Source of the DNA: Gammaproteobacteria bacterium RIFCSPHIGHO2_12_FULL_37_14
Lineage (GTDB): Bacteria > Pseudomonadota > Gammaproteobacteria > DSM-16500
Direction of reading: 5' to 3'
Assembly: GCA_001801485.1 (NCBI GenBank)
Contig: MGXV01000006.1
Location: forward strand, 9,977 to 73,976
DNA length: 64,000 nucleotides
In this document: positions 7,138 through 59,923 of the stretch, in pieces
How positions within the stretch are numbered: the first letter of the stretch is position 1
Layout of the letters: every line of letters begins with the position of its first letter
The notes under the pieces: generated by a model
Databases searched by the model: none
What the model was told of the DNA's origin: nothing
The model's input: the letters and a program-made list of their open reading frames with translations, nothing else
Program-made: the position numbers and the translations under genes

Positions 7138-9195
7138 TTATTTATTTTGTGGCGAGCAAGAAATAGCTTGGTTAATGTTTTTGCACAATAAACTTCTTCC
7201 AAAAAATCCATTAATTTGATAAGTTTTATGTTTCATTGAATGTAGCAATTGTTTGGTGTCAGGAGTAGTGTCAACAATAGCAAGTATTTCCTTCATATGC
7301 TGGCATCGCCGCGTAGAAGCGGCTCTGTCTTTATTTTTTAGATTATTCAATGTTAAGGTGGAATCAATATAGTTTTTTATTGCCAATCTAATTCTATTTT
7401 TAATGTGGGTAATGTCATTATCATCACTTTCAAAACCAAGTCGTTTTAGAATGTTTTCACAGGAAAGCAAGGGGATGATTTGCGTTTGAAGGAGTGCCAT
7501 TTTTTTATGTAAAGTAGATTTTTTCCAATAAAAACTTGTGTTGGCGTCGTTAATAATATCTAAGGTGATAGCACGATCTTTGTCATACATGATGGAATCA
7601 ATTTTATAAAGTTTATTGTCGATTTGAGCAAATAAATCCTTAAAACAATTTTTTAATTGATTATATAATGGAATATTTTTAATAATAAATAAATTTTCTT
7701 CATAGGCCTGAAAACAACTTTCAGCATCACAGCGTAGCGCTACAATTTCTTTAGTATGATTAAAAAAATCATTAATGATTTTTGAAGTCTTTTGTTTAAC
7801 TGCATTTTTAGTTTTTAGTTTACGAAATACTTTGATACCAAGCACATCAACAAATTCATTGATTGCGCAGGAAGAATGGCTGATGTTATTTAAAGCCTTA
7901 AATAGAACATCCTGAATTTTTTCAATTCGATTATCTTCTAAGGTTAATTTTCCTAATATTGAATAGGTGTCAATAGCAATCTGGTGAGCGTTAATGATCG
8001 CTGTACGTTTAGATGAAAAAAAAACCCAAGCTAACTTACGATCTAATTCGATTCGATCTAGAAGGTCAATGGCTTGGCCAGGTTCTAGGCGTTTCGTTGG
8101 GTCATTATCCATCATACTTAACATTGAATTGCGTAGTGCTATTTTATGTTGTGCTTTGAGATCATAAAGATAATTAAATAGTAGATTTAAATCTGGTATT
8201 TGAGAAATTTTGTTTGATTTGATTGCGCGTTTTTGTTCTTGAATTTGTTTTTCAATACTTTGATCGCTGAATAATAACCACCATACGACCGATAAAGAGA
8301 AAATATCAGATTTTTGATTGAGTGGAAATTTTTGTGTATAGGCTTCTGGTGGCAAAAAACCTAAAGAACCATGACAACTTTTACTTTCTTTATTTTGTTT
8401 TGTACTTAATCCAAAATCAATTATTTTCGCTTCTAAAGTACTTAAATCAATCAGGATGTTGTAAGGATTAATATCTAGATGGGCAATACCCTTGTCGTGT
8501 ATCTGTTCTTTTAAACAACGCGTGATATTTTTCGCTAAGCGAATGCGTTTAGTTGTATTTAATCTAGATAAATATCGATTTAATACAACATTCAGTGAGA
8601 CGCCACCTAGGTTTCTTAAAACTAAATAGCTCCTTATATTTTTTCCTTTCACATTTTCAATGGTTATTTTTTTGGCATGCAGATAGTCAATGTCACTCGA
8701 TATTTCAGCTTCACTTGTAGCCATTTTGTAAATTTCGTATGAAAAAGTTCCGGTGGCTTTATCTTTGAATTCCATGACTTTAATGACACGAGGTTTGCGT
8801 GATAGTTGTAAATTACCATCAGCTTGCATATGGTAGGTGCCAGCCAATTCTATTACTATGCTATACCCTCCTTTCCCTTTAGCAATTTTGCTGACGATTG
8901 AAAAGCTATCAGTAGCATAGCTTCGCCAAGTAATGTTAGCCTGCTCATTGAAGATAAGTTCATGATTGATTTTTTCTCTTTGAATCATCCAGTTGGTGAG
9001 CTTGATAGCAACATTGCTTAATTTGCCATTTTCATCCAGTATTTCAATGGGTGGATATTCATAGTCGCCATAAGAAACCACATGATCTTGTGTCAATTGA
9101 TGTTGTAAAAATTGCTTTAATACAGATAATTGCTTGGGTGGAAGCGAACTAGAATGGATTGATTTTTTAGGATGGTCATTATTCAATGATATCAA
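7138..9195 (-). CDS. Eukaryotic-like Ser/Thr protein kinase, candidate effector
   Basis: A 685-residue protein with a kinase domain at about residues 100-380. Visible parts are a glycine-rich loop (GKGGYSIV), the ATP-binding Lys in VIKVMEF, and the catalytic loop HLDINPYN (His239, Asp241; Leu replaces the usual Arg). DFG (Asp260) and a GFLPPEA segment equivalent to the APE motif follow. The last 300 residues are helical and of unknown fold. There is no membrane segment, unlike PknB-type bacterial kinases. With a Dot/Icm system nearby, an injected kinase like the LegK proteins of Legionella is plausible. Its start overlaps the upstream gene by 17 bases, so it is the last gene of a three-gene operon. 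Confidence 0.75.
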   Translation of the reverse strand: MISLNNDHPKKSIHSSSLPPKQLSVLKQFLQHQLTQDHVVSYGDYEYPPIEILDENGKLSNVAIKLTNWMIQREKINHELIFNEQANITWRSYATDSFSIVSKIAKGKGGYSIVIELAGTYHMQADGNLQLSRKPRVIKVMEFKDKATGTFSYEIYKMATSEAEISSDIDYLHAKKITIENVKGKNIRSYLVLRNLGGVSLNVVLNRYLSRLNTTKRIRLAKNITRCLKEQIHDKGIAHLDINPYNILIDLSTLEAKIIDFGLSTKQNKESKSCHGSLGFLPPEAYTQKFPLNQKSDIFSLSVVWWLLFSDQSIEKQIQEQKRAIKSNKISQIPDLNLLFNYLYDLKAQHKIALRNSMLSMMDNDPTKRLEPGQAIDLLDRIELDRKLAWVFFSSKRTAIINAHQIAIDTYSILGKLTLEDNRIEKIQDVLFKALNNISHSSCAINEFVDVLGIKVFRKLKTKNAVKQKTSKIINDFFNHTKEIVALRCDAESCFQAYEENLFIIKNIPLYNQLKNCFKDLFAQIDNKLYKIDSIMYDKDRAITLDIINDANTSFYWKKSTLHKKMALLQTQIIPLLSCENILKRLGFESDDNDITHIKNRIRLAIKNYIDSTLTLNNLKNKDRAASTRRCQHMKEILAIVDTTPDTKQLLHSMKHKTYQINGFFGRSLLCKNINQAISCSPQNK

Positions 9196-25929: not shown

Positions 25930-27444
25930 GTGGACACTCGTCGGTATGATCATGCTCCAAAAACTATTTTTGATTTACCTCTAGCAGATATTCCCTTAGC
26001 AGATATGGCGCATTTTCAATTGGAAATGCATAAAAAACATTCTACTTTTAGATTTATGTTAGGTGATAGAATTGCAATTTCTACTACTGATATTGTTGCA
26101 CTAAAAAAACATGCTCAAACCGCTGAAAAACCTGCTGAGATGTATCATTTTCTTCAACCTTTACTGGGCAAAGTAATTTTTCATGATATCGAACAAACGA
26201 AAAAACGAAGAAATTTTGAATTAAAACACATTTCTGCAAATCTTGTAGAAACTAATTTTGATTTTTTTTCACAATTATTAGATCAAGAAATAGCCGAATG
26301 GTTAAGATTAGGCAAGCAAAATAATGGGATTGTATCTATTCAAGATAGGTTAAAAACACTATCAATGCGAATGACAATCGCCTGGGCTTGTGGAAAGGAT
26401 TTTCCTGAGAGTGAAAAGCTTGCTTTCGCATTTCATGCTGTTTTAGCAGGTTTCATTAGTTTACAACACCAAAGTAATTCAGAGCTTGAAAGGGAAGTAA
26501 ACTCCCATCTTGACTATATAAAAAAAACAGTTGGTAACTTTGTTAATGAAAGGCGATCTATTGCGGGATTAAAATCAGAAAACCGAATTTATCTGGATGA
26601 ATTAATATCCATATCAAGTAAAGATGATGCATTGGATGAACTCATCACCTTAATACTTCTAGCGGGTTATCATACTACCGCTGCTTCCTCTTCTTGGGTG
26701 CTTTATGCTTTGTCTCAACATCCAGATATTGCGAAAAAAGTCCACGATGAAATTGACATGGTGATCCATCACAATTTATTTGATTATTCGATGCTTGCTA
26801 AATTACCGTATCTTTCTAAAGTGATTAGAGAAACCTTGCGTAGATATACACCAGGACCTTACACAGTCAGAGAAACTGATCAAGAATCTGAAATTGATGA
26901 TTACGTCATCCCACCAAAAACGATGGTATTTTATCCTATATGGGCAGTCCATATGGATCCACTTTATTGGCATCAACCAGAAAAATTTGATCCTGACCGC
27001 AGGTTTAACTTACGCGCTTACTTTCCATTTGGGTTAGGAGCAAGAAATTGCACCGGACAAACTATGGCCAATGCTGAGATCTTATTAATTATTTCGAAAA
27101 TTATGCAGAAAATAGTTATTAAAGCTGCTCCTAATTTTAATCCTGAACCAGCAGATAATTTTGTATTAATATCTAAGAATGGAATGGAATTAAACATATC
27201 TCCACGTAAAGAAAATATAAATAAAAATATTATTGCCGGATGCGCAGGATTAGGTACGTTTGCATTGACTAGCGCCTTAAATATTTCTAATGATAAACGG
27301 CTTTCTTTAATAATAGCTTTTATTGTGACAGTCATGGCTCTTTACTATAGCGATCAATTGATCAGTAAAAGGGATCGGTTTTTCAAAAAAAATATTTTTG
27401 ATAAAAAAAGTGAAGCCACTCCCCAAGTATCATTCCGCATGTGA
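25930..27444 (+). CDS. Cytochrome P450 with a C-terminal hydrophobic tail
   Basis: A 504-residue protein. All P450 marks are visible: the I-helix LLAGYHTTAASSSW, the K-helix ETLRRY, and the haem-binding loop FPFGLGARNCTG with Cys374 as iron ligand. P450s insert oxygen into lipids, steroids or secondary metabolites. Beyond the normal end (about residue 430), two hydrophobic segments occur (IIAGCAGLGTFALTSAL and SLIIAFIVTVMALYYS), followed by a charged tail. Bacterial P450s are usually soluble, so this looks like an unusual membrane anchor. The start is GTG at 25930. No redox partner gene is adjacent. Confidence 0.9.
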   Translation: MDTRRYDHAPKTIFDLPLADIPLADMAHFQLEMHKKHSTFRFMLGDRIAISTTDIVALKKHAQTAEKPAEMYHFLQPLLGKVIFHDIEQTKKRRNFELKHISANLVETNFDFFSQLLDQEIAEWLRLGKQNNGIVSIQDRLKTLSMRMTIAWACGKDFPESEKLAFAFHAVLAGFISLQHQSNSELEREVNSHLDYIKKTVGNFVNERRSIAGLKSENRIYLDELISISSKDDALDELITLILLAGYHTTAASSSWVLYALSQHPDIAKKVHDEIDMVIHHNLFDYSMLAKLPYLSKVIRETLRRYTPGPYTVRETDQESEIDDYVIPPKTMVFYPIWAVHMDPLYWHQPEKFDPDRRFNLRAYFPFGLGARNCTGQTMANAEILLIISKIMQKIVIKAAPNFNPEPADNFVLISKNGMELNISPRKENINKNIIAGCAGLGTFALTSALNISNDKRLSLIIAFIVTVMALYYSDQLISKRDRFFKKNIFDKKSEATPQVSFRM

Positions 27445-45350: not shown

Positions 45351-45788
45351 TTATTCCAGTATTTTTAATACCGACTCTAATCGTTCAGGTGAAAAGACAC
45401 GGGAAAGCAAACGTAATCGTTCAAAGACAATATTTCGTCGTAAAAATAATCCTGCCATAATATTTTCGGGATTATTATTTTCTTCCGCATACATTAATAG
45501 CTTTGAAGCTGAACCCGGATCAATCGTATCAATGGCTTGTAAGAGACGTAAAATTCGTGATGTTTTTAAATGAGCGCATAGTATTACAAACTGATTTTCT
45601 TTTCCTAATTCGAAGCTAGTTAATTTGTCTAAGGCATTGCCAATGGTATCGATCACTTGCTCAATGTGTGGATTTCCATCAAAAGTAAAATTTTCAACAG
45701 TTTCCATAAATGCAATGACCCGATAAATCATCGGATCATCATAATTTTTCCAAAACTCATGTGAAGAAGCTAAATCTAATTTAGGCAT
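45351..45788 (-). CDS. icmW: Dot/Icm chaperone IcmW
   Basis: A 145-residue small acidic protein. The pattern SHEFWKNYDDPMIYRVIAFMETVENFTFDG and the ICAHLKTSRILRLLQAIDTIDPGSASKLLMYAEE region are IcmW hallmarks. With IcmS it forms an adaptor that delivers many effectors to the coupling complex. It follows icmX by 11 bases. The overlapping opposite-strand reading frame is noise. Confidence 0.9.
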   Translation of the reverse strand: MPKLDLASSHEFWKNYDDPMIYRVIAFMETVENFTFDGNPHIEQVIDTIGNALDKLTSFELGKENQFVILCAHLKTSRILRLLQAIDTIDPGSASKLLMYAEENNNPENIMAGLFLRRNIVFERLRLLSRVFSPERLESVLKILE

Positions 45789-45799
45789 ATAGGTAAACT

Positions 45800-46711
45800 C
45801 TACGGCGTGATAGGTACGCCAGCTGCTTTTTGAAATAATTTCTTTTCATTGGACTGGTTATTTAAAATCAATAAAGTGTTAGTCATTGCTTGAGCCGCTA
45901 CCATTTGTTTGGAAGTTTGTAATAATTGAGACATCAGCACAAATGATTGTGATTCATACAGTAGCATTTGTCGTAACACATAGCCAATAGGCTGGGAATT
46001 CAGTTGATCTGTCCAGGTTTTATTATTGGCTTGTTTAAATAGCTCCAGTTGATCAGGAGGAGTTTTATTTAAATAATCGACATAGTAGCCACTTAAAACA
46101 TAGGCATCAAACGTTTCTATTGCCATCAGAGTATTGTAATTAGCAGCATAAATGGATTGATCAGTAACATTTTTATTCTGAAATTTATACGTCCATGGTG
46201 GATAATGGATAATACTCAGCCCAGCAGCATTTTTCACAAAACCAAAAGCTGGATCCGTGTTAGCAGGTTGCTGTGTGCCGGGCAAGCTATAGGGCAGTTT
46301 TAATAAAGTGGTATAAGTTAAATTATTAACGGATGGTATTTCTTTCGAGGTCACGCCAGAAAATAATTCGTTTAGCAATTGTGTTTGGATTTCAACTCCT
46401 TTGCCATCTTTATCGAGTCCACGTTGCACTAAAAGATTATTTCCGATGGCGGTGGTATAAGCAGATAAATTTTTGATAGGTTCAACACTGGTATCAGGCT
46501 GTGTCCAGTTTGTCATGTAAGTAGCAAAGTTTTTCGATAGAGTAAAAACATTGGCATCTATCTTTTGTAAGACTTGATAAATTTGTTGTAATAGTGCATC
46601 TGTGCTGCCACTGCTTTGCGCTTGAGAAGATGAAGCGACGCTAATGACAACGAAGATCGCAAATATGAAAATAAATGGTTTTTTAAATTTGCTAAAAATT
46701 AGCATAAACAC
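45800..46711 (-). CDS. icmX: Dot/Icm protein IcmX
   Basis: A 303-residue exported protein. A signal peptide (about 1-30) is followed by a helical periplasmic domain with NNLTYTTLLKLPYSLPGTQQ, SIIHYPPWTYKF and FDAYVLSGYYVDYLNK. The gene pair icmX-icmW matches Legionella and Coxiella order. IcmX is secreted or periplasmic and needed for the secretion system. It is shorter than the roughly 460-residue Legionella form; the missing N-terminal part may correspond to the separate proline-rich gene upstream. Confidence 0.85.
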   Translation of the reverse strand: MFMLIFSKFKKPFIFIFAIFVVISVASSSQAQSSGSTDALLQQIYQVLQKIDANVFTLSKNFATYMTNWTQPDTSVEPIKNLSAYTTAIGNNLLVQRGLDKDGKGVEIQTQLLNELFSGVTSKEIPSVNNLTYTTLLKLPYSLPGTQQPANTDPAFGFVKNAAGLSIIHYPPWTYKFQNKNVTDQSIYAANYNTLMAIETFDAYVLSGYYVDYLNKTPPDQLELFKQANNKTWTDQLNSQPIGYVLRQMLLYESQSFVLMSQLLQTSKQMVAAQAMTNTLLILNNQSNEKKLFQKAAGVPITP

Positions 46712-46726
46712 TCCAAAATATTTTTG

Positions 46727-47266
46727 TTAATAATTGATATCCCATCCACTTCCTCCGGATGGCGTAGACGGTTTTGGTGCCGCATTAGGGGGGCTTTTTC
46801 CTTGAAAGCCGCTGTAAACAGGCTCTTGACGTGTTTGTTCCTCTGGTTTGCCAGTAGTGGTTGGAGTATTAACAGAGTAAGCTTCCGGGGGTAGTTCAGG
46901 GCTGGGTAGTGGTGGTGGAACATTTTGTACACTAGGCGCTGAGCTGGGAAGAGAGGGGCTCACTAAAGAGGGTGTTTGGCTAGCTGATATTTCGGGTACT
47001 TTAGGTGGCGGTGGCAATAATTGCTTGGCTTGATTAGCAGTTTCTTGTTGATATTGTTGATAGCGCGCTTCAATAGAGCTTTTATAGTCTTGTGAAGTTG
47101 GTACGATAGGTTGTAGTAAATCTTGCGAAGTTTGCGGAGCTTGAACGGTTGGGCTAGTTTTATTTGTATTATTGCCAAACGTTCCGAAGTAGGTTTGAGC
47201 TTTAGTAGCGATTGAGGTTGTATAAAGAGCAATCACTATGAGGCTGCAAAGTATTAGTTTAAACAT
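46727..47266 (-). CDS. Proline-rich exported protein upstream of icmX
   Basis: A 179-residue protein with a signal peptide (about 1-22). The remainder is low-complexity and rich in Pro, Gln and Ser (LLPPPPKVP, PSLPSSAP, PPPLPSPELPPEA). It is first in a minus-strand operon with icmX and icmW, 15 bases before icmX. The position and composition suggest a periplasm-spanning linker or envelope partner of the Dot/Icm machine. It could also be the separated N-terminal part of IcmX. I recognise no family. Confidence 0.6.
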   Translation of the reverse strand: MFKLILCSLIVIALYTTSIATKAQTYFGTFGNNTNKTSPTVQAPQTSQDLLQPIVPTSQDYKSSIEARYQQYQQETANQAKQLLPPPPKVPEISASQTPSLVSPSLPSSAPSVQNVPPPLPSPELPPEAYSVNTPTTTGKPEEQTRQEPVYSGFQGKSPPNAAPKPSTPSGGSGWDINY

Positions 47267-47434
47267 AATCGCTCCAGCAAAGGTTGCAATAGAAATGCTA
47301 ACACTCGTTTGGCATAGAGAGCAAGTTACTCCTCATCTTCGCTCGATAACAAAAGCTCGTGAATACACTCCAGTGTTGTAATTCGTCTCTACCTCAATAA
47401 TAATAGGTATTCTACTTGTTTTAAGGAACAAGGC

Positions 47435-47881
47435 ATGGCGGTAAGGCAAGCATTCAAAATTTCTCGCAAAACTTTTTTTAATCCCCGCGCTTGGTTTGGT
47501 TACGATTCGCTGAAAGAAGATAATAAAACAATTTGGGTTTTACTAGCAGAATTGTTTTCGCCACCAGGGGTTGTTAGAGAAGAAACTTTCGAAGAAGCGA
47601 TGCAACGTTTAAATTTATCAGAAAAAGATTTGCAACTAACTGCACGTAACTATTATCTCTATGCATTATTTTTTGTTGTTTTAGGTAGCAGTGTTCTTGT
47701 ATATGCTTTTTATCTCATGATTCAGTATCGATTATTTTGGGCCTGGTTATTGGCGATGAGCATTGCTAGTTTATTTTATGCAAATGCTTTTCGTTATCAT
47801 TTTTGGTTCTTTCAAATTAAACATCGAAAATTGGGTTGCACTTTTGCAGAATGGCGAGCGGGTAAACCTCTAAGAGAATGA
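47435..47881 (+). CDS. icmV: Dot/Icm protein IcmV
   Basis: A 148-residue membrane protein with two hydrophobic segments at about 72-120 (YYLYALFFVVLGSSVLVYAFYLMI and LFWAWLLAMSIASLFYA). The start, FKISRKTFFNPRAWFGYD, and the end, KHRKLGCTFAEWRAGKPLRE, are typical of IcmV. It directly precedes dotA, with 3 bases between, as in Legionella and Coxiella. The divergent 168-base region upstream probably contains promoters for both this operon and the icmX operon; I see no convincing PmrA box. Confidence 0.9.
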   Translation: MAVRQAFKISRKTFFNPRAWFGYDSLKEDNKTIWVLLAELFSPPGVVREETFEEAMQRLNLSEKDLQLTARNYYLYALFFVVLGSSVLVYAFYLMIQYRLFWAWLLAMSIASLFYANAFRYHFWFFQIKHRKLGCTFAEWRAGKPLRE

Positions 47882-47884
47882 TGC

Positions 47885-50416
47885 ATGGCGATTAACATCC
47901 CTTTTTTTACTCCCCCCCTTAAAGATCAATCAGTTTATTATTTAGGACAAATCTTTGGGACAATGGGGAGTATCCTTACTCCTGATCCAGCACCTTTAAT
48001 TCTTGGAGAAATGTTTAAAACCTTAAATACGATTATTTTGACAATTGGCGTCATGATTGTTTTATATATAACAATTGTAGGAGTAATAAAAACAGCGCAT
48101 GAAGGCGAGCCTTTAGGAAAACAGTGGAGTACCTTATGGCTACCTATACGCATGGTGATGGGAATTGCTTCCTTGGTGCCCAGTACCTCTGGTTATTCAT
48201 TTTTACAAATTTTGATTATGTGGGTGATTATCCAAGGCATAGGTGCAGCCGATTCTATTTGGACAACGACGCTGCAATACTATTCTGCCTTTGGATCATT
48301 AACAGCTAAAGTAACCACAGCTTCTGGTTTGCAAGCGAGTTCGGCTATGCAAACTTTATTTCAGATGATGGTTTGTCAGGCAAGTGCTGATTATCCTTCA
48401 TCTTATACGGCGGCACAGGGGAAAGGACCGTATTGTTCGGGTAATTTGCGAGACTGTAGCCGTACGCAATCTTCAGCAGGAAATATTACCACCATCAAAT
48501 TTGCGCTAAATGGTGCATGTGGGAAAATGACGGTATGCTATCCTACATCATTTTGTGCCGATACATCTGGGGCAGGTCAAATTGCTTGTGCTGCATGCAC
48601 AGCACAAAATGATGCAATTGGGAAAATCATGGGGAATCAAACAGTCAATGCTACCATTAATGGTCAATCCAAATCTTTTGTTGGTTTTGGAAAAGTTGCC
48701 GAGCAATTTGTGCTTGCTGATTACGATTATCGAGTATTCTTCGATAATCTTTTAGATCCAGCAAAAACCAGACCCGGGGTGGTAGACAATTATTGTAATG
48801 GCCCTGGTGGAATACCTGATGTGAATCAATGTTGTGGTAAACCTTCACTTGAATCTGTTTTAAGTTTAAGTAGCGATGTGAAGGCTTGCGAATTGCCCAA
48901 TCGAGGCTTACTTTCTTCTGATGACTCACTTCCTAGCGGTGGTTTTGATGGTCCGCCTCAATCGACAGTCACGATGGTATATTGGCCGTATTTGTTAAAA
49001 GAAATTCCCGATCTTTCTCCTTCCTTTATTCAAGATGCTGCAGATTATTACACGTCAGCGATTACGACAGCAGTGGATGACAAGGTTCAACAACTCATTG
49101 CTGGCGCGAGTACAAAATCATCATCAACAATAGATGAAACTGAAAAACAAAAAGCTATCGATGCGGGGTGGATCTATGCAGGAGCTTTTTATTATACCTT
49201 GTCTAACTATAATAATAAAAATCAATATTCGGCTACTCCTAATCTAACCGTCATGGGTAATGATCCAGCAACAGCATTAAGTACTTCAAAAAATCCTTTG
49301 TATGGTTATCGTAATAATTATACTGCTGCGGGATATTTGGTAGATTACGTGACTCAACTTGCCCAACAAGCGCAACCTGGAAGTACTGGCGGGGCTACTA
49401 CCGGTTATTCTTTTAGTAGTACATCGCTTCCTTCATCAGTAAGTGGCTTGGGGAAAATTACGGATGGATTTAATAGTTTAGCCAGTTGGGCGATGAATAC
49501 TTTCCAAAAAATGTTTACTGGTTCGAGTGGTGAAGCTACGAATCCACTGGTGAGTTTGCAGTCGTTTGGCCAAGGAATGCTGATTGCCTTACAAATTATT
49601 TTTGCTGTGATACTGGTGGTGATGGTGGCAGCTGGACTCATTGGATTTGCTGGTGGTTCTGCGCTTGGTACAACAATAGAAAATCCAATTGGACCGACCT
49701 TAACATTACTTTCGATTATTTTTACCCCATTGTTTTCAGTGCTTTTAGGTGGCTTGTTTATGTTTGCGGCTATGTTAGCTATTTACACTCCGCTGATTCC
49801 TTATATTATTTTTACGGTGGGTGTTTTAGCTTGGTTTATATTAGTGATAGAAGCAATCATTGCTGGTCCACTGGTCGCATTGGGATTATTAATGCCTGGC
49901 GGACAAAGTGAGTTATGGGGAAAATCAGAACAAGCTTTAATGTTATTGTTTAGCATATTTTTGCGCCCTGGTTTGATGATTTTTGGTATGGTGGCAGCGA
50001 TGTTGTTATCCATCGTTGCGGTATCAGTGGTGAATTATGCGTTCGTCACCGTTGCAGGAGCGGCGATGAGCAATCCTGGTCCAATAGAATTATTATTATT
50101 TATTGCAGCCTATGCCACGCTGATTCTCTCAGTATTAAATAAAAGTTTTGCATTGATTCATATTGTTCCCGATCAACTATTGCGTTGGATAGGACATCAT
50201 CCGGGACAAGAAGGATCACCCGAACAAGCTCTTGGACAAGTGAAAGGAGGGGTAGAATCAGGTGCGGGTGCAGCTAAAGGAGCGGGTGGTGGTGCATTAG
50301 GTTCCGCGGATACGAAGGGTACGCAGGCACGTAAGGAATATGAGGAGGAACTAACGAAGAAGCAAAACAAAGCTAAAGGGCCACCGGGTTCTGCTAGCGA
50401 TGCAGATAAAAAATAA
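47885..50416 (+). CDS. dotA: Dot/Icm inner-membrane protein DotA
   Basis: A polytopic protein of 843 residues. Membrane segments lie near residues 45-110 and again at about 560-770 (QIIFAVILVVMVAAGLIGFAGGSALG, MFAAMLAIYTPLIPYIIFTVGVLAWFILVIEAIIAGPLVALGL). A Cys-rich periplasmic part between them (CQASADYPSSY, CCGKPS) can form disulfides. A Lys/Gly tail ends the protein. DotA is essential for Dot/Icm function. It is shorter than the roughly 1,050-residue Legionella form. Confidence 0.95.
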   Translation: MAINIPFFTPPLKDQSVYYLGQIFGTMGSILTPDPAPLILGEMFKTLNTIILTIGVMIVLYITIVGVIKTAHEGEPLGKQWSTLWLPIRMVMGIASLVPSTSGYSFLQILIMWVIIQGIGAADSIWTTTLQYYSAFGSLTAKVTTASGLQASSAMQTLFQMMVCQASADYPSSYTAAQGKGPYCSGNLRDCSRTQSSAGNITTIKFALNGACGKMTVCYPTSFCADTSGAGQIACAACTAQNDAIGKIMGNQTVNATINGQSKSFVGFGKVAEQFVLADYDYRVFFDNLLDPAKTRPGVVDNYCNGPGGIPDVNQCCGKPSLESVLSLSSDVKACELPNRGLLSSDDSLPSGGFDGPPQSTVTMVYWPYLLKEIPDLSPSFIQDAADYYTSAITTAVDDKVQQLIAGASTKSSSTIDETEKQKAIDAGWIYAGAFYYTLSNYNNKNQYSATPNLTVMGNDPATALSTSKNPLYGYRNNYTAAGYLVDYVTQLAQQAQPGSTGGATTGYSFSSTSLPSSVSGLGKITDGFNSLASWAMNTFQKMFTGSSGEATNPLVSLQSFGQGMLIALQIIFAVILVVMVAAGLIGFAGGSALGTTIENPIGPTLTLLSIIFTPLFSVLLGGLFMFAAMLAIYTPLIPYIIFTVGVLAWFILVIEAIIAGPLVALGLLMPGGQSELWGKSEQALMLLFSIFLRPGLMIFGMVAAMLLSIVAVSVVNYAFVTVAGAAMSNPGPIELLLFIAAYATLILSVLNKSFALIHIVPDQLLRWIGHHPGQEGSPEQALGQVKGGVESGAGAAKGAGGGALGSADTKGTQARKEYEEELTKKQNKAKGPPGSASDADKK

Positions 50417-50437
50417 GCAACCATTTACTCGCGAATA

Positions 50438-51577
50438 CTACATCCCAGCACTATCTTTTTCTTCTCGCTGGGTTTGTTCCATAATCAAGCGATATTGACG
50501 TTCTGAAATCATGTTGGCTTTGAATTTTTCTTGTGCGTCCGTTTGTATCGTTCGTCCATGCTCTCTGACTAATTTACGGATAACATTAGTCAGATTAAGA
50601 ATATCGGTTTCCAATAAAATATCGCGAATCTTTTCATCAAATACTAAATATTCACGAAGTGCAACGCGCTTACCTTCAGGTGTCGGTATTAAGCGTTGTG
50701 AAATCACTAAGCGCACGGTTTCGATAATGTCCACCGTTCGTCCTTGGCGTTCATCAGGGGGGAAGGTAATGACTAAACGGCGTATCGTTTCTGCCACACT
50801 GTTACTATGTAGAGTGGTATACACGGGGTGGCCTGTCATGGCTGCTTCCATGACTGCAGCGATAGTTTCAGGATCTCTAGCTTCACCTACTAATATTAAG
50901 CGAGGTTTACGACGTAGCGCATTACGCACACCTGCTGCAAAACTGGGTAAGTGACGCGGAATTTCAGATTGGCTCACAATGCTCGATATTTTTTCCACGC
51001 TGTCATAAACAAATTCAATAGGTGCTTCATAGGTTAAAATTTTTCGATGGCTTTCAGAATTTTCTGCAATATGACGAATGATAGCGGCTAGTAAAGTACT
51101 TTTTCCTGAACCGGTAGCACCAGTAACATATACCACACCTTGCTCGGGAGCAATCGCATCCAGAATAACTTGAGGTAAGTCCATGCTTTCTAGTGTGGGT
51201 GGATCGGTTGGGATGGTTCGCGCGGTAATTTGAATACCATCGTGTCCTTCCACCATGCATCCTGTGCCATTGATACGAAATCGATAGCGATCTGCTCGAT
51301 TAGGTCGAATTTCATAATGGGTATCGATATCTTTTCCAGACATGACGATGGCAGTAGCGTTTGGTCCGTAAATTGCATTCAGCACATCGCCTATTTCAGT
51401 ATTAGATAATCGTCTACGAGTAATTTTATTTAATCGACCATAAATTTCTGCAAAAATGGGTTCACCCGTTTGGAATGTGATATCTGATGCGCCTAGTTTT
51501 ACGCTATGCATCAGAATTTCATTGGCTGAATCAATTGATAAACGAATAGGTTCTTGTGGATATAAAAAATCAGTCAT
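50438..51577 (-). CDS. dotB: Dot/Icm ATPase DotB
   Basis: A 379-residue PilT-like ATPase. The Walker A box GATGSGKST is at 153-161, and RLILVGEARDPETI is the Walker B/Asp-box region, with the His-box TGHPVYTTLHSNSV. DotB docks on the cytoplasmic face and energises effector export with DotO. It is in one operon after dotC (8-base overlap). It faces dotA convergently. Confidence 0.95.
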   Translation of the reverse strand: MTDFLYPQEPIRLSIDSANEILMHSVKLGASDITFQTGEPIFAEIYGRLNKITRRRLSNTEIGDVLNAIYGPNATAIVMSGKDIDTHYEIRPNRADRYRFRINGTGCMVEGHDGIQITARTIPTDPPTLESMDLPQVILDAIAPEQGVVYVTGATGSGKSTLLAAIIRHIAENSESHRKILTYEAPIEFVYDSVEKISSIVSQSEIPRHLPSFAAGVRNALRRKPRLILVGEARDPETIAAVMEAAMTGHPVYTTLHSNSVAETIRRLVITFPPDERQGRTVDIIETVRLVISQRLIPTPEGKRVALREYLVFDEKIRDILLETDILNLTNVIRKLVREHGRTIQTDAQEKFKANMISERQYRLIMEQTQREEKDSAGM

Positions 51578-52409
51578 GTTTGATCACCACTGCTCGCCAG
51601 CCCCTGCTATTAATTTGCAATTTTGGATGTTCAACGATACGTAATACTTGATCGTTTACCCGCATATCAGTGCCATCGCCCGTCACACCTAATTCTGTTC
51701 GCGATACAAAAGGCGGGCTGATCATTTTTTCTTGTAATAACTTTCGGTACAATATCATTCCACGAAAATCACGCTTCAAGCGAGCAAGATTTTGCTGAAA
51801 AATAGTGGCGGCTTGTTCAATTCCTTTATCCCAACCGGTATGTATCCCACTTTTCCAAATTTTTTGTTCTTCTTCCGTTCGTGGTAATAAGGTTTTGTCA
51901 GGTAGGCTGGGTTTAGAAAAATTAAACCACAAATATTCACGCCAATTGGGCGGCGTGGTAGCGAATCTTGCTTGTTGGACAATTTTGAAAGTTTTATCCG
52001 CGACTCGAATAGTATTTGGATCATTGAGATTCAAGCTATTATCACCTTCTTCCAATACGGGAGGAAGCACACCATGACTGAGCACCATGGCATAAAAATT
52101 ATAAGTGCTATCAAGATATTTTCCATCTTGTTCCATGCGATTATTCATTTGATTAGATGCCCACGCCAAGCCGCCTTGTGCGCCAATACTCATAGCAGAA
52201 TCTTGCAATGATTTAATTCGCATCTGGCTGAGTTCAGTTTTAGCGGTAGATGCAGCAAGCGGTGCTACTTTGACATTTTCTAGTTGTGAAATATTGGCCG
52301 TATCTACCTTGTCGAGACTTTGTTGATACGTGCTACAGGCAGCAAGCAAGATGAAAATAAAACTAAGAAAGAGCAGTTCATAGTTAATTTTTGGCATATC
52401 GTAACTCAA
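51570..52409 (-). CDS. dotC: Dot/Icm outer-membrane lipoprotein DotC
   Basis: A 279-residue lipoprotein. The signal sequence ends in LLAACSTYQ. The DotC segments SAMSIGAQGGLAWASNQMN, LDSTYNFYAMVLSHGVLPPVLEEG, TPPNWREYLWFNF and HTGWDKGIEQAATIFQQNLARLKRDFRGMILYR are clear. It forms the outer-membrane core with DotD and DotH. The start overlaps the end of dotD by about 26 bases. Confidence 0.95.
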   Translation of the reverse strand: MSYDMPKINYELLFLSFIFILLAACSTYQQSLDKVDTANISQLENVKVAPLAASTAKTELSQMRIKSLQDSAMSIGAQGGLAWASNQMNNRMEQDGKYLDSTYNFYAMVLSHGVLPPVLEEGDNSLNLNDPNTIRVADKTFKIVQQARFATTPPNWREYLWFNFSKPSLPDKTLLPRTEEEQKIWKSGIHTGWDKGIEQAATIFQQNLARLKRDFRGMILYRKLLQEKMISPPFVSRTELGVTGDGTDMRVNDQVLRIVEHPKLQINSRGWRAVVIKHD

Positions 52410-52854
52410 TGACGCGACTCTCAGGGAAAACAGTTACGGAGCCGCGTCTTCCGCATTGATAGCCTACATCTCGCAAAATATCACCTAGCATCGTATTTTT
52501 TGAATATATAGTGACTAATAAAGGAATGGCTGGTGCTGTTCCTAATACACGGACACGATAATTTGCAGCATAAGCAATTTGTTTAACCAGCGGTTCGACA
52601 GGACCTGACCAATCGACGGTCGTTAATCCAGCCATCCCATAAGTGGCGGGACTGGGGGGTGGCGCTAAACTAGGGAGTGGATGCGCAGCTTGTGCTGTTT
52701 CAGCAAGATCAACAACAGAGCGGCTGACTGAATAGGATGCTTCGGCTAGAGAAGCTTCATTTTTAGTAATATCAAATCCTTTGGGAGGGGTCGGTGAAGC
52801 ACATGCATATAATAGGCAGGTCACTAAAATGATGCAGCCAATTTTATTATTCAT
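52384..52854 (-). CDS. dotD: Dot/Icm outer-membrane lipoprotein DotD
   Basis: About 156 residues. The signal peptide ends in a lipobox (LLYACAS). The DotD core TTVDWSGPVEPLVKQIAYAANYRVRVLG and TIYSKNTMLGDILRDVGYQCGRRGSV (secretin N0-like) is complete. The ATG at 52854 gives a normal signal peptide and has a GGGA element near; an upstream ATG adds 11 residues. First gene of dotDCB. Confidence 0.95.
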   Translation of the reverse strand: MNNKIGCIILVTCLLYACASPTPPKGFDITKNEASLAEASYSVSRSVVDLAETAQAAHPLPSLAPPPSPATYGMAGLTTVDWSGPVEPLVKQIAYAANYRVRVLGTAPAIPLLVTIYSKNTMLGDILRDVGYQCGRRGSVTVFPESRVIELRYAKN

Positions 52855-52959
52855 AGTTTGAATCCCTATAGCCGGATGAAAAAACACCCTTCACCATGGT
52901 ATAACGTTAGCTCGTAAATTTGAATAGATTTCAACTACCGAATCCAGGATAATCTACTC

Positions 52960-53202
52960 ATGGCACATTGGCGCGATTCAGCACGAAATGTAAGATTTTT
53001 TTTTATCGACTTTAGAGCAACGTTTCCTTTGCTTATTCTCTTTTTGCATCTTCGCATTTATACATTTGTTTTTGCATTGTTAGCGATGGTATTTTTTATT
53101 ATTCTTGAACGTTTTGGATTTACTCCTATGGTTTTCTTGCGTTGGTTACGAGCTTATGTTGCAGGACCACGTAAAATCGCTCAGCCTTGGTGGAAAAATT
53201 AA
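52960..53202 (+). CDS. icmT: Dot/Icm protein IcmT
   Basis: An 80-residue membrane protein. The start HWRDSARNVRFFFIDFRATFPLLILFLHLRIYTFVFALLAMVFFIILERFGFTP is the IcmT signature with its two adjacent membrane segments, and it ends RAYVAGPRK. The gene is divergent from dotD. It overlaps icmS by one base (TAATG). Confidence 0.95.
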   Translation: MAHWRDSARNVRFFFIDFRATFPLLILFLHLRIYTFVFALLAMVFFIILERFGFTPMVFLRWLRAYVAGPRKIAQPWWKN

Positions 53203-53549
53203 TGGCAAACGTAGACATTTCACAATTAATGATAAAAATAGCTCGCCAAAAGAATGCGCAATTTAGTTTGAATGGGCGTCCCATGACCATGGAAGAAGTA
53301 TTTTCTTCTACGGGATTACTAGCGGGGATGGCTAGACGTGCTGATCAGTTAGCATCGTTGTGCCTCGGATATGGAATAGGCGTCACGTTTGAAGAGGCTG
53401 AAGGCTCAGCTTTAGGAGTAAAAGTTATTTTTGACGATATTACTCCCAATGTATTGAGGCTTCTTTGCTTGATCGATGTGATGAGCGAATTGATGAAGGG
53501 AACACCCCGCGGAGAAGTCGCAGCGTTGGATCAGTTGATGTATGACTAA
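53202..53549 (+). CDS. icmS: Dot/Icm chaperone IcmS
   Basis: About 115 residues of a small acidic chaperone. VDISQLMIKIARQKNAQFSLNGRPMTMEEVFSSTGLLAGMARRADQLASLCLGYGIGVTFEEAEGSALGVKVIFDD identifies IcmS. It pairs with IcmW or LvgA to present effectors. I take ATG 53202, one base within the icmT stop. In Legionella icmR and icmQ follow directly; here a tRNA follows, and icmQ lies on the other strand 4.5 kb on. Confidence 0.92.
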   Translation: MANVDISQLMIKIARQKNAQFSLNGRPMTMEEVFSSTGLLAGMARRADQLASLCLGYGIGVTFEEAEGSALGVKVIFDDITPNVLRLLCLIDVMSELMKGTPRGEVAALDQLMYD

Positions 53550-53612: not shown

Positions 53613-55024
<1,412 letters not shown>

Positions 55025-57260: not shown

Positions 57261-57312
57261 AATGGTAATAGTATGATATTATTGAGCTCGAAATTTTTCT
57301 GGAGTGATTTAC

Positions 57313-58035
57313 TTGCAAACCAATTCAGCGTTGACAAAACTATGTAGTAGTTGTGGGTTACAAAAACCACTGTCAGCTTTTTTAGAATTCTCAAGTTCTG
57401 AAGGAACTTTTTACAGTAATATTTGCTCGACGTGTCGAAAAACAAATATTGAGGAAGGTCAAAACAAAGAAACAACTGACATTGTAACAACAACATCTGG
57501 CGGTAAGATTGATGCTAAAGCAAAAATGCATAGTGATATTGCAAAAAAACAAGAACATCAAAATGTTGGAGAGCTTTACCAAGAAGAAAGAGAAAAAACG
57601 GATGAAAAACTTTATCAACAAATTATAAAAACCAATAAAATTGCTACGGATGAAAAAAAACATCGCCGAGATTTTTTGGGAAAATCTTCCTTTTTAAGTG
57701 AAACTAGAAGAGACAAGCAAGGGGCAGTCGATCCTGCATCTCCTGAATTTAAAGAAGAATTAGAAAAACAAATTAATTTTACTGTACCATTTCAAGATAC
57801 ACAGATTGTCAAACAAAAACATGGCGCTGAATATCAAAAAGTAAAAGCGGGATTAGGCGGTCTTGGCGCTGAATTTGATAGAATGAAGCGTTGGTTAAAT
57901 AGCGGTTCACCTATTATTCAACAAGCTGAGCTCGCATTGCGAAACAAGCAACAAAAAGAAAATCAGGATAAAAATAAAAAAACAGATGAAAATATTGAAA
58001 AACCGTCAGGATCACAACCATCCAGGCGAAAGTAA
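57313..58035 (+). CDS. Unknown basic protein with a Cys4 zinc-finger-like N-terminus
   Basis: About 240 residues. Near the N-terminus CSSCGLQKPLSAF and, about 20 residues on, CSTCRK form a CxxC-CxxC zinc site. The remaining sequence is highly charged and likely disordered or helical (KKQEHQNVGELYQEEREKTDEKLYQQ), ending in Lys/Gln-rich repeats. TTG at 57313 follows a TGGAG site at normal distance; a GTG at 57304 is an alternative. It is convergent with icmQ. I do not recognise the family; a nucleic-acid or protein-scaffold role is possible. Confidence 0.55.
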   Translation: MQTNSALTKLCSSCGLQKPLSAFLEFSSSEGTFYSNICSTCRKTNIEEGQNKETTDIVTTTSGGKIDAKAKMHSDIAKKQEHQNVGELYQEEREKTDEKLYQQIIKTNKIATDEKKHRRDFLGKSSFLSETRRDKQGAVDPASPEFKEELEKQINFTVPFQDTQIVKQKHGAEYQKVKAGLGGLGAEFDRMKRWLNSGSPIIQQAELALRNKQQKENQDKNKKTDENIEKPSGSQPSRRK

Positions 58036-58054: not shown

Positions 58055-58627
58055 TTATTTTTTAACTAATTCACCAGTAGCATTTAATTGATAATCTTGT
58101 TCGTTATGCGTTAGAGAAATTAATTTATCAAAATGCAGGCAACCTTCTTTTACTTTAATCAGTATATTTCCAATCGCATCTTTGGAGATTTCTAATTCAG
58201 GTATTTTAATCAAATCATGGGTTTTAACAACGATAGTCAAATAGCCATGTTGTAATTTGTTAGGCTTGCTTCTAATCAGAGCTTCTATATGAGACTTTTC
58301 AGAGTAGATGGGGCGATTAACGCTATATTCATAAAAAACTGCTGGATTTAGCATTTTTAGCCATGTTTTTAAAACATTTCCTTGTGCATTATAAATATGT
58401 ACATAGACTAATGTATCATCTGCCATTATTTCATGTGTCGTTTGAAGATGAGTTTGTTCAAGTGACGTGAGTTTCGTTTCTACTTCAGTCAGTATATTTT
58501 GCAAACGTTCGCGAATAAAACAAAATTTATTGCCAATATTATATTTTTCTCGTAGGTCGCTATCCATTTTTAAAGCGGTACGAACCAATTCTAGAAGTTT
58601 TTTTTGTGGATCAGTATCGTTAGTCAT
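58055..58627 (-). CDS. icmQ: Dot/Icm protein IcmQ
   Basis: A 190-residue protein that lines up with Legionella IcmQ: helical N-terminal domain (about 1-65), then the segment VYVHIYNAQGNVLKTWLKML, NRPIYSEKSHIEALIRSKPNKLQHGYLTIVVKTHDLI, and the end NATGELVKK. In Legionella, IcmQ inserts into membranes, binds NAD through its C-terminal domain, and is held by the small partner IcmR. Its start overlaps the small gene upstream by 8 bases. Identity is by remembered alignment, but the middle segment is convincing. Confidence 0.85.
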   Translation of the reverse strand: MTNDTDPQKKLLELVRTALKMDSDLREKYNIGNKFCFIRERLQNILTEVETKLTSLEQTHLQTTHEIMADDTLVYVHIYNAQGNVLKTWLKMLNPAVFYEYSVNRPIYSEKSHIEALIRSKPNKLQHGYLTIVVKTHDLIKIPELEISKDAIGNILIKVKEGCLHFDKLISLTHNEQDYQLNATGELVKK

Positions 58628-58862
58628 GGTTTTTTTGAGTATCTCTGTATTGCATGCTTAAGAGAGTCAACTCCTCGCATTTTTTGGCTATATCAGCAAG
58701 AGCATCCGAAATATCTAATAAATACTGGACAGAATTGCTTGGATTACCATTTTTGTTTCCCGGCGCAGCATTTTGTAATCCTGTACCTAACGCAGTAGTT
58801 TGTTTGGATAACTCATTTAGACTAATTGTAGTAGTTGAAATTAATTGTGCAATGTCTATCAT
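58620..58862 (-). CDS. Putative IcmR functional homologue (FIR), new type
   Basis: An 80-residue protein immediately upstream of icmQ, overlapping its start by 8 bases. No known family is visible. A first helix (AQLISTTTISLNELSKQTTALGTGLQN), a Gly/Asn linker and a second amphipathic helix (SVQYLLDISDALADIAKKCEELTLLSMQYRD) fit the small helical chaperone expected. In the Legionellales, the gene before icmQ encodes IcmR or an unrelated-looking FIR protein that binds IcmQ and controls its membrane activity. This gene is in exactly that place and size. Function is inferred from context. Confidence 0.7.
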   Translation of the reverse strand: MIDIAQLISTTTISLNELSKQTTALGTGLQNAAPGNKNGNPSNSVQYLLDISDALADIAKKCEELTLLSMQYRDTQKNHD

Positions 58863-58969
58863 TATTTTCCTCGTTTACTGTCTTTTCTGAATTTCGTAGA
58901 ATCTCAGCCAAATTGTTCAGTGCAAAAAAAAGCACGTCACGATGAGACTGAAACCTTAGCATGTCGAGG

Positions 58970-59764
58970 CTAGTCAGCATTGCTGCTATTTTGATTGCTT
59001 ATTTCTGCCTCAATTGCATAAGGTTCTACAGAAATCGCTGATCGCGCATCATAACCGAGATGAAGATTGTCTTCAATCTGAGAAGCGCGTCCTTGCATAT
59101 AAATATGGCGCATGAAAATATATTTATCAAATGTCGCTTCTTCTAGCATAGGCTGTAATTCCAACAATTGTGCTCGTCTATCGACAACACCTAAACCATA
59201 TAATGCATATCGAGCTCGTAGAGGATGAATATGTGGATAAACAGAAAATACATAATAATCAAATACTCCACCAAAGCCATCTCTCAATGTGCTAGGTCCC
59301 CAGAATGGCCAGACAATGTAAGTGGACTCTGTATAACCCCAGCGTGCTAAGGTTAAACCAAAATCATTCGTATAAAGAGGCAAGTTCATTCGCTCAGCCA
59401 CATCAAATAGTCCACCGATGCCAATGGTCGTATTGATGAGTAAGCGCCAAGAATCATTTGCGGCTTGTCCAAAATGTAATTGTAATAAATCGTTGGCAAT
59501 ATTTGGTAGATTATGGATATTGTTAAAAAAATTATTAATTCCTTGGTTAAGTGGTTTAGGAATAATTTTGTTATATAGGGTGGCAATAGGTTTTAAGATG
59601 GTGATATCAATTCTTTCATTAAAATCTAACATGATTCGATTAAAGCCGATCAAGGGATCGTTAATCTTTTTTTCATTAGCATAATTTGCGGGACTGATAA
59701 AAACCACAGTAATCAAAAATATAAAGATCCGAATCGAGGCAGTTGGCAATTTCCATTTTTTCAT
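58970..59764 (-). CDS. mlaA: Phospholipid-transport protein MlaA (VacJ), non-lipidated form
   Basis: About 264 residues. The MlaA core is clear: DPLIGFNRIMLDFNERID, NFFNNIHNLPNIANDLLQ, ANDSWRLLINTTIGIGGLFDVA, FGLTLARWGYTESTYIVWPFWGPSTLRDGFG. MlaA removes misplaced phospholipid from the outer leaflet of the outer membrane. The signal sequence (RIFIFLITVVFISPANYAN) has no lipobox Cys, and the protein contains no Cys at all, so it is not a lipoprotein here. AGGA before ATG 59764 supports that start over 59794. Confidence 0.9.
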   Translation of the reverse strand: MKKWKLPTASIRIFIFLITVVFISPANYANEKKINDPLIGFNRIMLDFNERIDITILKPIATLYNKIIPKPLNQGINNFFNNIHNLPNIANDLLQLHFGQAANDSWRLLINTTIGIGGLFDVAERMNLPLYTNDFGLTLARWGYTESTYIVWPFWGPSTLRDGFGGVFDYYVFSVYPHIHPLRARYALYGLGVVDRRAQLLELQPMLEEATFDKYIFMRHIYMQGRASQIEDNLHLGYDARSAISVEPYAIEAEISNQNSSNAD

Positions 59765-59923
59765 TAAAATTATCCTAAATTTGCTTTTAACCAAAATAAA
59801 CTATTTTTAGTAGGGAAACTAGAGCTAGTTCGACTATTTCACTTGATCGCTACGGCAATGAAAATATCTGGCTAGTATAGCATGCGAATTTTTGCAATAA
59901 TGGCAATTTATTGGCTTCTCGAT

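Follow-up and report, generated by a model that had tools for sequence, protein, structure and literature searches.

A conserved small protein encoded before, and sometimes fused to, IcmQ is a probable functional homologue of IcmR in one gammaproteobacterial order

IcmQ is part of the Dot/Icm protein-injection machine, and its N-terminal domain is the part that is bound by IcmR. A 64,000-nucleotide stretch of contig MGXV01000006.1 from Gammaproteobacteria bacterium RIFCSPHIGHO2_12_FULL_37_14, a relative of amoeba-infecting bacteria, which is referred to here as the window, carries an icmQ gene preceded by a gene for a protein of 80 amino acids, and the question raised by this locus is what the small protein does. 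Functional homologues of IcmR (FIRs) are described as hypervariable, and the known ones as devoid of detected similarity to IcmR (PMC8528123); because of this hypervariability, the mode of action of an FIR is hard to read from sequence. The present analysis indicates that the 80-residue protein is very probably the FIR-type IcmQ partner of this Dot/Icm system, a reading supported by its position, its size, its predicted hairpin, its presence and absence matching those of IcmQ, and its in-frame fusions to IcmQ. What is new, beyond one more unnamed FIR, is an FIR family that is conserved throughout an order and is sometimes fused to its client IcmQ.

The gene pair consists of the following elements.

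58055..58627, minus strand: icmQ, 190 amino acids (Pfam PF09475; PDB 4eyy_Q)
58620..58862, minus strand: FIR-type gene, 80 amino acids, likely IcmQ partner (open reading frame; family; beside or fused to icmQ in 30/30 IcmQ-bearing genomes of the order)
58868..58872, minus strand: putative Shine-Dalgarno-like GAGGA 5' of the FIR start (sequence)
58620..58627, minus strand: 8 nt shared by the FIR stop region and the icmQ start (sequence; putative translational coupling)
58442..58612, minus strand: IcmQ N-terminal helical hairpin (Qn), expected FIR-binding part (alignment with the L013 fusion; approximate boundaries)

The 190-residue protein, which had been read as IcmQ by the initial annotation, contains the segments VYVHIYNAQGN and NRPIYSEKSHIEALI, ends in LVKK, and matches Pfam PF09475 with 66.5 bits, above the curated cut-off of 25, while the window sequence retrieves the IcmQ chain 4eyy_Q from the PDB with an E-value of 5.8e-13; its identity is thereby borne out. 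The score against the NCBIfam equivalog TIGR02527 (72.9 bits) lies below the cut-off of 99.1, which is a naming threshold also missed by the IcmQ of all three relatives tested (70.7, 64.6, and 64.7 bits), and the protein is classed under PF09475 instead. Its length compares with 191 amino acids in 4eyy_Q, to which it aligns by itself from its own residue 30, and the IcmQ profile of the order covers residues 6-189 of that chain. The small open reading frame (ORF) and the start of icmQ share 8 nt (ATGACTAA), and both the overlap and the lack of a recognised family claimed earlier were confirmed: the 80-residue protein matched nothing in Pfam or NCBIfam at E<=10, and its PDB search listed just three rows, with E-values of 1.4 to 1.7, no chain falling below 1. 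The GAGGA site precedes the FIR start and no Shine-Dalgarno-like site occurs within the 30 nt upstream of the icmQ ATG, a pattern that points to coupling of icmQ translation to that of the FIR gene.

When the single sequence was used as query, eight relatives besides the protein itself were retrieved from 5.8 billion proteins, and a search of the same collection with A3, a profile built on an alignment of 29 sequences of the small-protein family, retrieved 536 members at E<=0.01. Among the 120 of these that were listed, none carries a Pfam domain, and the source names read "hypothetical protein" except for a JGI label of an unrelated enzyme (P0131); AQUSIP_03990 of Aquicella siphonis is a family member among the matches listed. 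The family is hallmarked by the core motif LxxGLQxAAP...S.QYL, and five residues (L25, L29, P34, Y47, and L48) do not vary among the 29 aligned sequences. The separate FIR gene is under purifying selection, with ratios of nonsynonymous to synonymous substitution rates (dN/dS) of 0.09 (L004/L005), 0.15 (L003/L045), and 0.10 (L003/L009), which are rough because dS is high in these pairs (1.4, 1.5, and 2.8, respectively); the fourth FIR comparison was saturated, as were three of the four IcmQ comparisons. In the FIR domain of three fused pairs, dN was 0.19-0.22 and dS 0.85-1.47, resulting in ratios of 0.13 to 0.24.

The window was assigned to the order of its nearest relative on account of the 61% identity between its IcmQ and that of L001; judged from the Aquicella matches, this would be the Aquicella order (GTDB DSM-16500; PMC11338181). 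IcmQ was found in 30 of the 36 genomes of this order that were examined, and the FIR profile matched the same 30, once in each, while the remaining six lack both; matches are expected in the 24 genomes from which A3 was built, whereas the six with fused proteins contributed no sequence to it. IcmS is still present in three of the six genomes without the pair (G009, G033, and G035). The FIR gene lies 5' of icmQ in all 24 separate-gene loci of the order, with a median gap of 18.5 nt (range -11 to 187), and since the protein is conserved beside or fused to icmQ in every IcmQ-bearing genome of the order, the small ORF is not a product of chance. Scanning a genome collection with the IcmQ alignment yielded 24 loci, in 23 of which a protein with the motif precedes or is fused to IcmQ; the exception, L024, belongs outside the order. 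Among 369 genomes drawn across the class, the FIR profile matched three, each of which also belongs to the order set, and none of the 26 others in which IcmQ occurs. The IcmQ frame is interrupted in L052 and L060, which could reflect decay or assembly error.

In six of the 30 genomes (L013, L014, L018, L022, L053, and L054), the FIR forms the N-terminal domain of an IcmQ protein of about 250 amino acids in total, and three further in-frame fusions emerged from the protein search (P0091, P0099, and P0118). PF09475 scores above its cut-off in the C-terminal part of all nine, and the six are matched in their N-terminal part by the separate-gene FIR profile, with E-values of 2.2e-12 to 2.8e-22. 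No in-frame start codon occurs between residues 50-97 in L022 or 50-100 in L054, and therefore a second protein is not started in those stretches; alternative in-frame starts exist in L013, L014, L018, and L053, where a second protein is possible. In a tree of 33 rows joining FIR and IcmQ, the fused or separate state needs six changes, at least three of which are forced by well-supported branches; each change may be a gain or a loss, and the placement of L053 and L054, which form long branches, is unsure. L021, whose genes are separate, adjoins four fused rows. Searches of an open-licence literature collection listed no title or abstract opening on an Aquicella FIR or an IcmQ fusion, which is no proof of absence.

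The 80-residue protein was modelled by AlphaFold2 as a two-helix hairpin with a mean predicted local distance difference test score (pLDDT) of 85, in agreement with the two-helix design that had been proposed for it.

58767..58853, minus strand: predicted helix 1, residues 4-32 (AlphaFold2 model)
58629..58736, minus strand: predicted helix 2, residues 43-78 (AlphaFold2 model)
58719..58790, minus strand: residues 25-48 (LGTGLQNAAPG...SVQYL), the most conserved stretch, surrounding the turn (alignment A3)

In the model of one fusion (pLDDT 94), the FIR hairpin and the IcmQ N-terminal hairpin make up four helices in a bundle-like arrangement, and the best PDB match of this model is chain Q of 4eyy, the IcmQ of the Legionella IcmR-IcmQ complex. 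The natural fusions together with the predicted intramolecular bundle lend indirect support to binding of IcmQ by the 80-residue protein. The IcmQ part of the order aligns by profile to chain Q of that complex over its full length, but unlike in the fusions, the partner in 4eyy is a separate IcmR chain. Two-helix hairpins are also a feature of the WXG100/ESAT-6 type, of which EsxA and EsxOP appeared among the structural matches and whose hairpins pair into four-helix bundles.

Like Legionella IcmR and FIRs, the small gene of the window lies directly 5' of icmQ and in the same orientation, and its product is helical by prediction and expected to bind the IcmQ N-terminus. Unlike them, it belongs to a sequence family of its own, conserved order-wide with a near-invariant turn motif, its pair lies away from icmS, and its family includes natural IcmQ fusions. 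The lack of detected similarity to IcmR is a trait shared with known FIRs (PMC8528123): no IcmR chain was listed when A3 was run against the PDB at E<=10, the presence of such a chain in the library not having been separately confirmed, and as sequence homology to IcmR proper was not detected, the gene is not classed as icmR.

Kinship with FIR-position ORFs of other orders was likewise considered, these ORFs having been picked by eye from those before icmQ, so that some may be wrong. A3 showed no significant similarity to 23 such ORFs outside the order; 21 of them scored between -1.4 and 3.1 bits and two gave no reported score, none surpassed the highest value among 200 shuffles of the same ORF, and the probabilities from hhalign stayed below 1%. 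In three genomes of another order (L055-L057), a small ORF directly precedes icmQ as in the window, and it scored 0.2 to 2.5 bits, a level that 1 to 16 of the 200 shuffles per ORF also attained. Remote homology was thus rejected on the shuffle controls, which leaves distant kinship unproven and not disproven. Ten of the 23 ORFs ranked within the highest 5% of the shuffles made from them, about one being expected; this excess may reflect very distant kinship or shared amphipathic helices and helix periodicity, and the latter alone may suffice because shuffling removes helical periodicity. In L078, a very short reverse-strand ORF (1140-1334, 64 amino acids stop to stop) occupies the FIR position, with an icmS-like ORF on one side and an N-extended IcmQ on the other.

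The pace of change was compared between 24 in-order gene pairs with a separate FIR (the six fusions and L052 being set aside) and 19 outside, loci with an IcmQ or FIR ORF that is broken, fused-looking, or poorly delimited having been excluded (L060, L069, L071, L072, L077, L078, and L080). At 40-50% IcmQ identity, FIR pairs are clearly related in 182 of 183 comparisons within the order versus none of nine outside. The in-order pairs are also related at 30-40% (5/5), 50-60% (80/80), and 60-80% (8/8), while the outside counts are 1/81 at 20-30%, 0/73 at 30-40%, 2/3 at 50-60%, 2/3 at 60-80%, and 1/2 above 80%. The initial annotation had proposed a new FIR type and noted that known FIRs diverge strongly between genera; position, size, predicted hairpin, co-occurrence, and fusions uphold the new type, but by these sequence comparisons the FIR of this order is conserved order-wide and not hypervariable. 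A mirror-tree comparison of 14 loci with MlaA upstream provides weak evidence. In L065, L067, and L068, the IcmQ proteins are 75-81% identical and the FIR-position ORFs look unrelated in two of the three pairs, perhaps an early stage of FIR replacement.

A plausible course of action, drawn by analogy with Legionella work and from the predictions, is that the FIR serves as a chaperone that limits IcmQ self-association and controls membrane insertion. The 80-residue protein would fold as a helical hairpin and pair with the IcmQ N-terminal hairpin into one four-helix bundle, acting as a 1:1 cap; this bundle would keep IcmQ soluble, block its self-association, and permit only controlled membrane insertion. 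The two proteins would be made together, the FIR from its own ribosome-binding site and icmQ from a start inside the FIR stop region. Because the two are a single polypeptide in several relatives, FIR and IcmQ probably work as a lasting 1:1 unit. A further step, tentative and held with less than even confidence, is that in this order the FIR has become a fixed 1:1 subunit and is no longer an exchangeable, fast-evolving helper, forming a permanent four-helix module in which the conserved turns (LxxGLQxAAP...S.QYL in the FIR, GxKFRFIRxRL in IcmQ) would lie at the same pole and form a joint contact site for the membrane or for a third component of the Dot/Icm system.

A stronger version, compatible with a FIR-type partner and rather doubtful at present, regards the small protein as the lasting structural half of IcmQ instead of a chaperone, the bundle being needed for IcmQ action. 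It draws on the fused rows in several tree branches and on the divergence of the FIR at about IcmQ's own rate, both of which would suit a fixed subunit more than a chaperone that can be exchanged. A fused chaperone could still open and close, however, and an IcmQ profile that already spans 4eyy_Q marks the FIR as an addition and not as a piece split from IcmQ.

That the gene encodes an unrelated small Dot/Icm protein, such as an effector adaptor or assembly factor merely sharing an operon with icmQ, is improbable: the absence of named-family matches above chance and the almost uniform "hypothetical protein" labels would suit it, but such a protein would not be expected in frame at the IcmQ N-terminus or with the same presence and absence as IcmQ, and the gene further upstream, which varies between mlaA and a SpoU-type methylase gene, is fused in none of the 23 motif loci viewed. 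Least probable by far is a spurious ORF or a fragment of IcmQ separated from it by an error in start codon or frame; the ORF is short and overlaps icmQ, but its product is conserved in many genomes with 536 family members, three of four pairs have dN/dS of 0.09 to 0.15, and the window IcmQ is already full length. The FIR-type partner thus remains the preferred reading.

The surroundings of the pair include the following genes.

52960..53202, plus strand: icmT (NCBIfam NF038220)
53187..53549, plus strand: icmS (Pfam PF12608)
58970..59794, minus strand: mlaA, directly upstream of the FIR gene, a neighbour outside the mechanism (Pfam PF04333; same neighbour in L001)

The claim that the icmQ pair is detached from icmTS and inverted holds, with 4.5 kb from the icmS end to the icmQ stop, and the separation is common to the seven genomes, among 24 of the order with both matches, that carry icmS and icmQ on one contig (G001, G003, G004, G010, G011, G014, and G015; 4.6 to 26.6 kb). 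The nearest relative, G001, has the window's inverted layout at about 4.6 kb, and icmT-icmS-FIR-icmQ look contiguous by eye in L056 and L057. As read from ORFs, the first gene before the pair is mlaA in 14 and the SpoU-type methylase gene in nine of the motif loci, upstream genes being Pfam-checked in the window, L001, and L013.

The Dot/Icm block at 45351-53549 comprises icmW, icmV, dotA, dotB, a T4SS_TraI-domain protein, which we take to be DotC, dotD, icmT, and icmS, with two unassigned ORFs (45800-46711 and 46727-47266) between icmW and icmV. An ORF convergent to icmQ (57304-58035) carries, close to its start, two CxxC pairs that by eye resemble a zinc ribbon, and its C-terminal part is charged; it gave only sub-threshold matches in Pfam and NCBIfam. 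A tRNA-Leu(CAG) gene (53613-53696, plus strand) overlaps the 3' end of purA (53678-55012, minus strand) by 19 nt, and ORFs at 7138-9195 and 25930-27444 show, by eye, protein-kinase-like motifs and a cytochrome-P450-like heme motif, respectively.

The analysis proposes a function for a "hypothetical" family, including AQUSIP_03990 of the cultured, amoeba-associated Aquicella siphonis, and the genus Aquicella can be grown in the laboratory (PMC11338181). The large family, the conserved motif, and the fusions open the way to alignment-based mapping of the interface and supply natural single-chain material for structure work. Meanwhile, the fusions make it testable whether IcmQ must shed its chaperone to act; if the permanent module is real, they would be natural proof that IcmQ works without releasing it.
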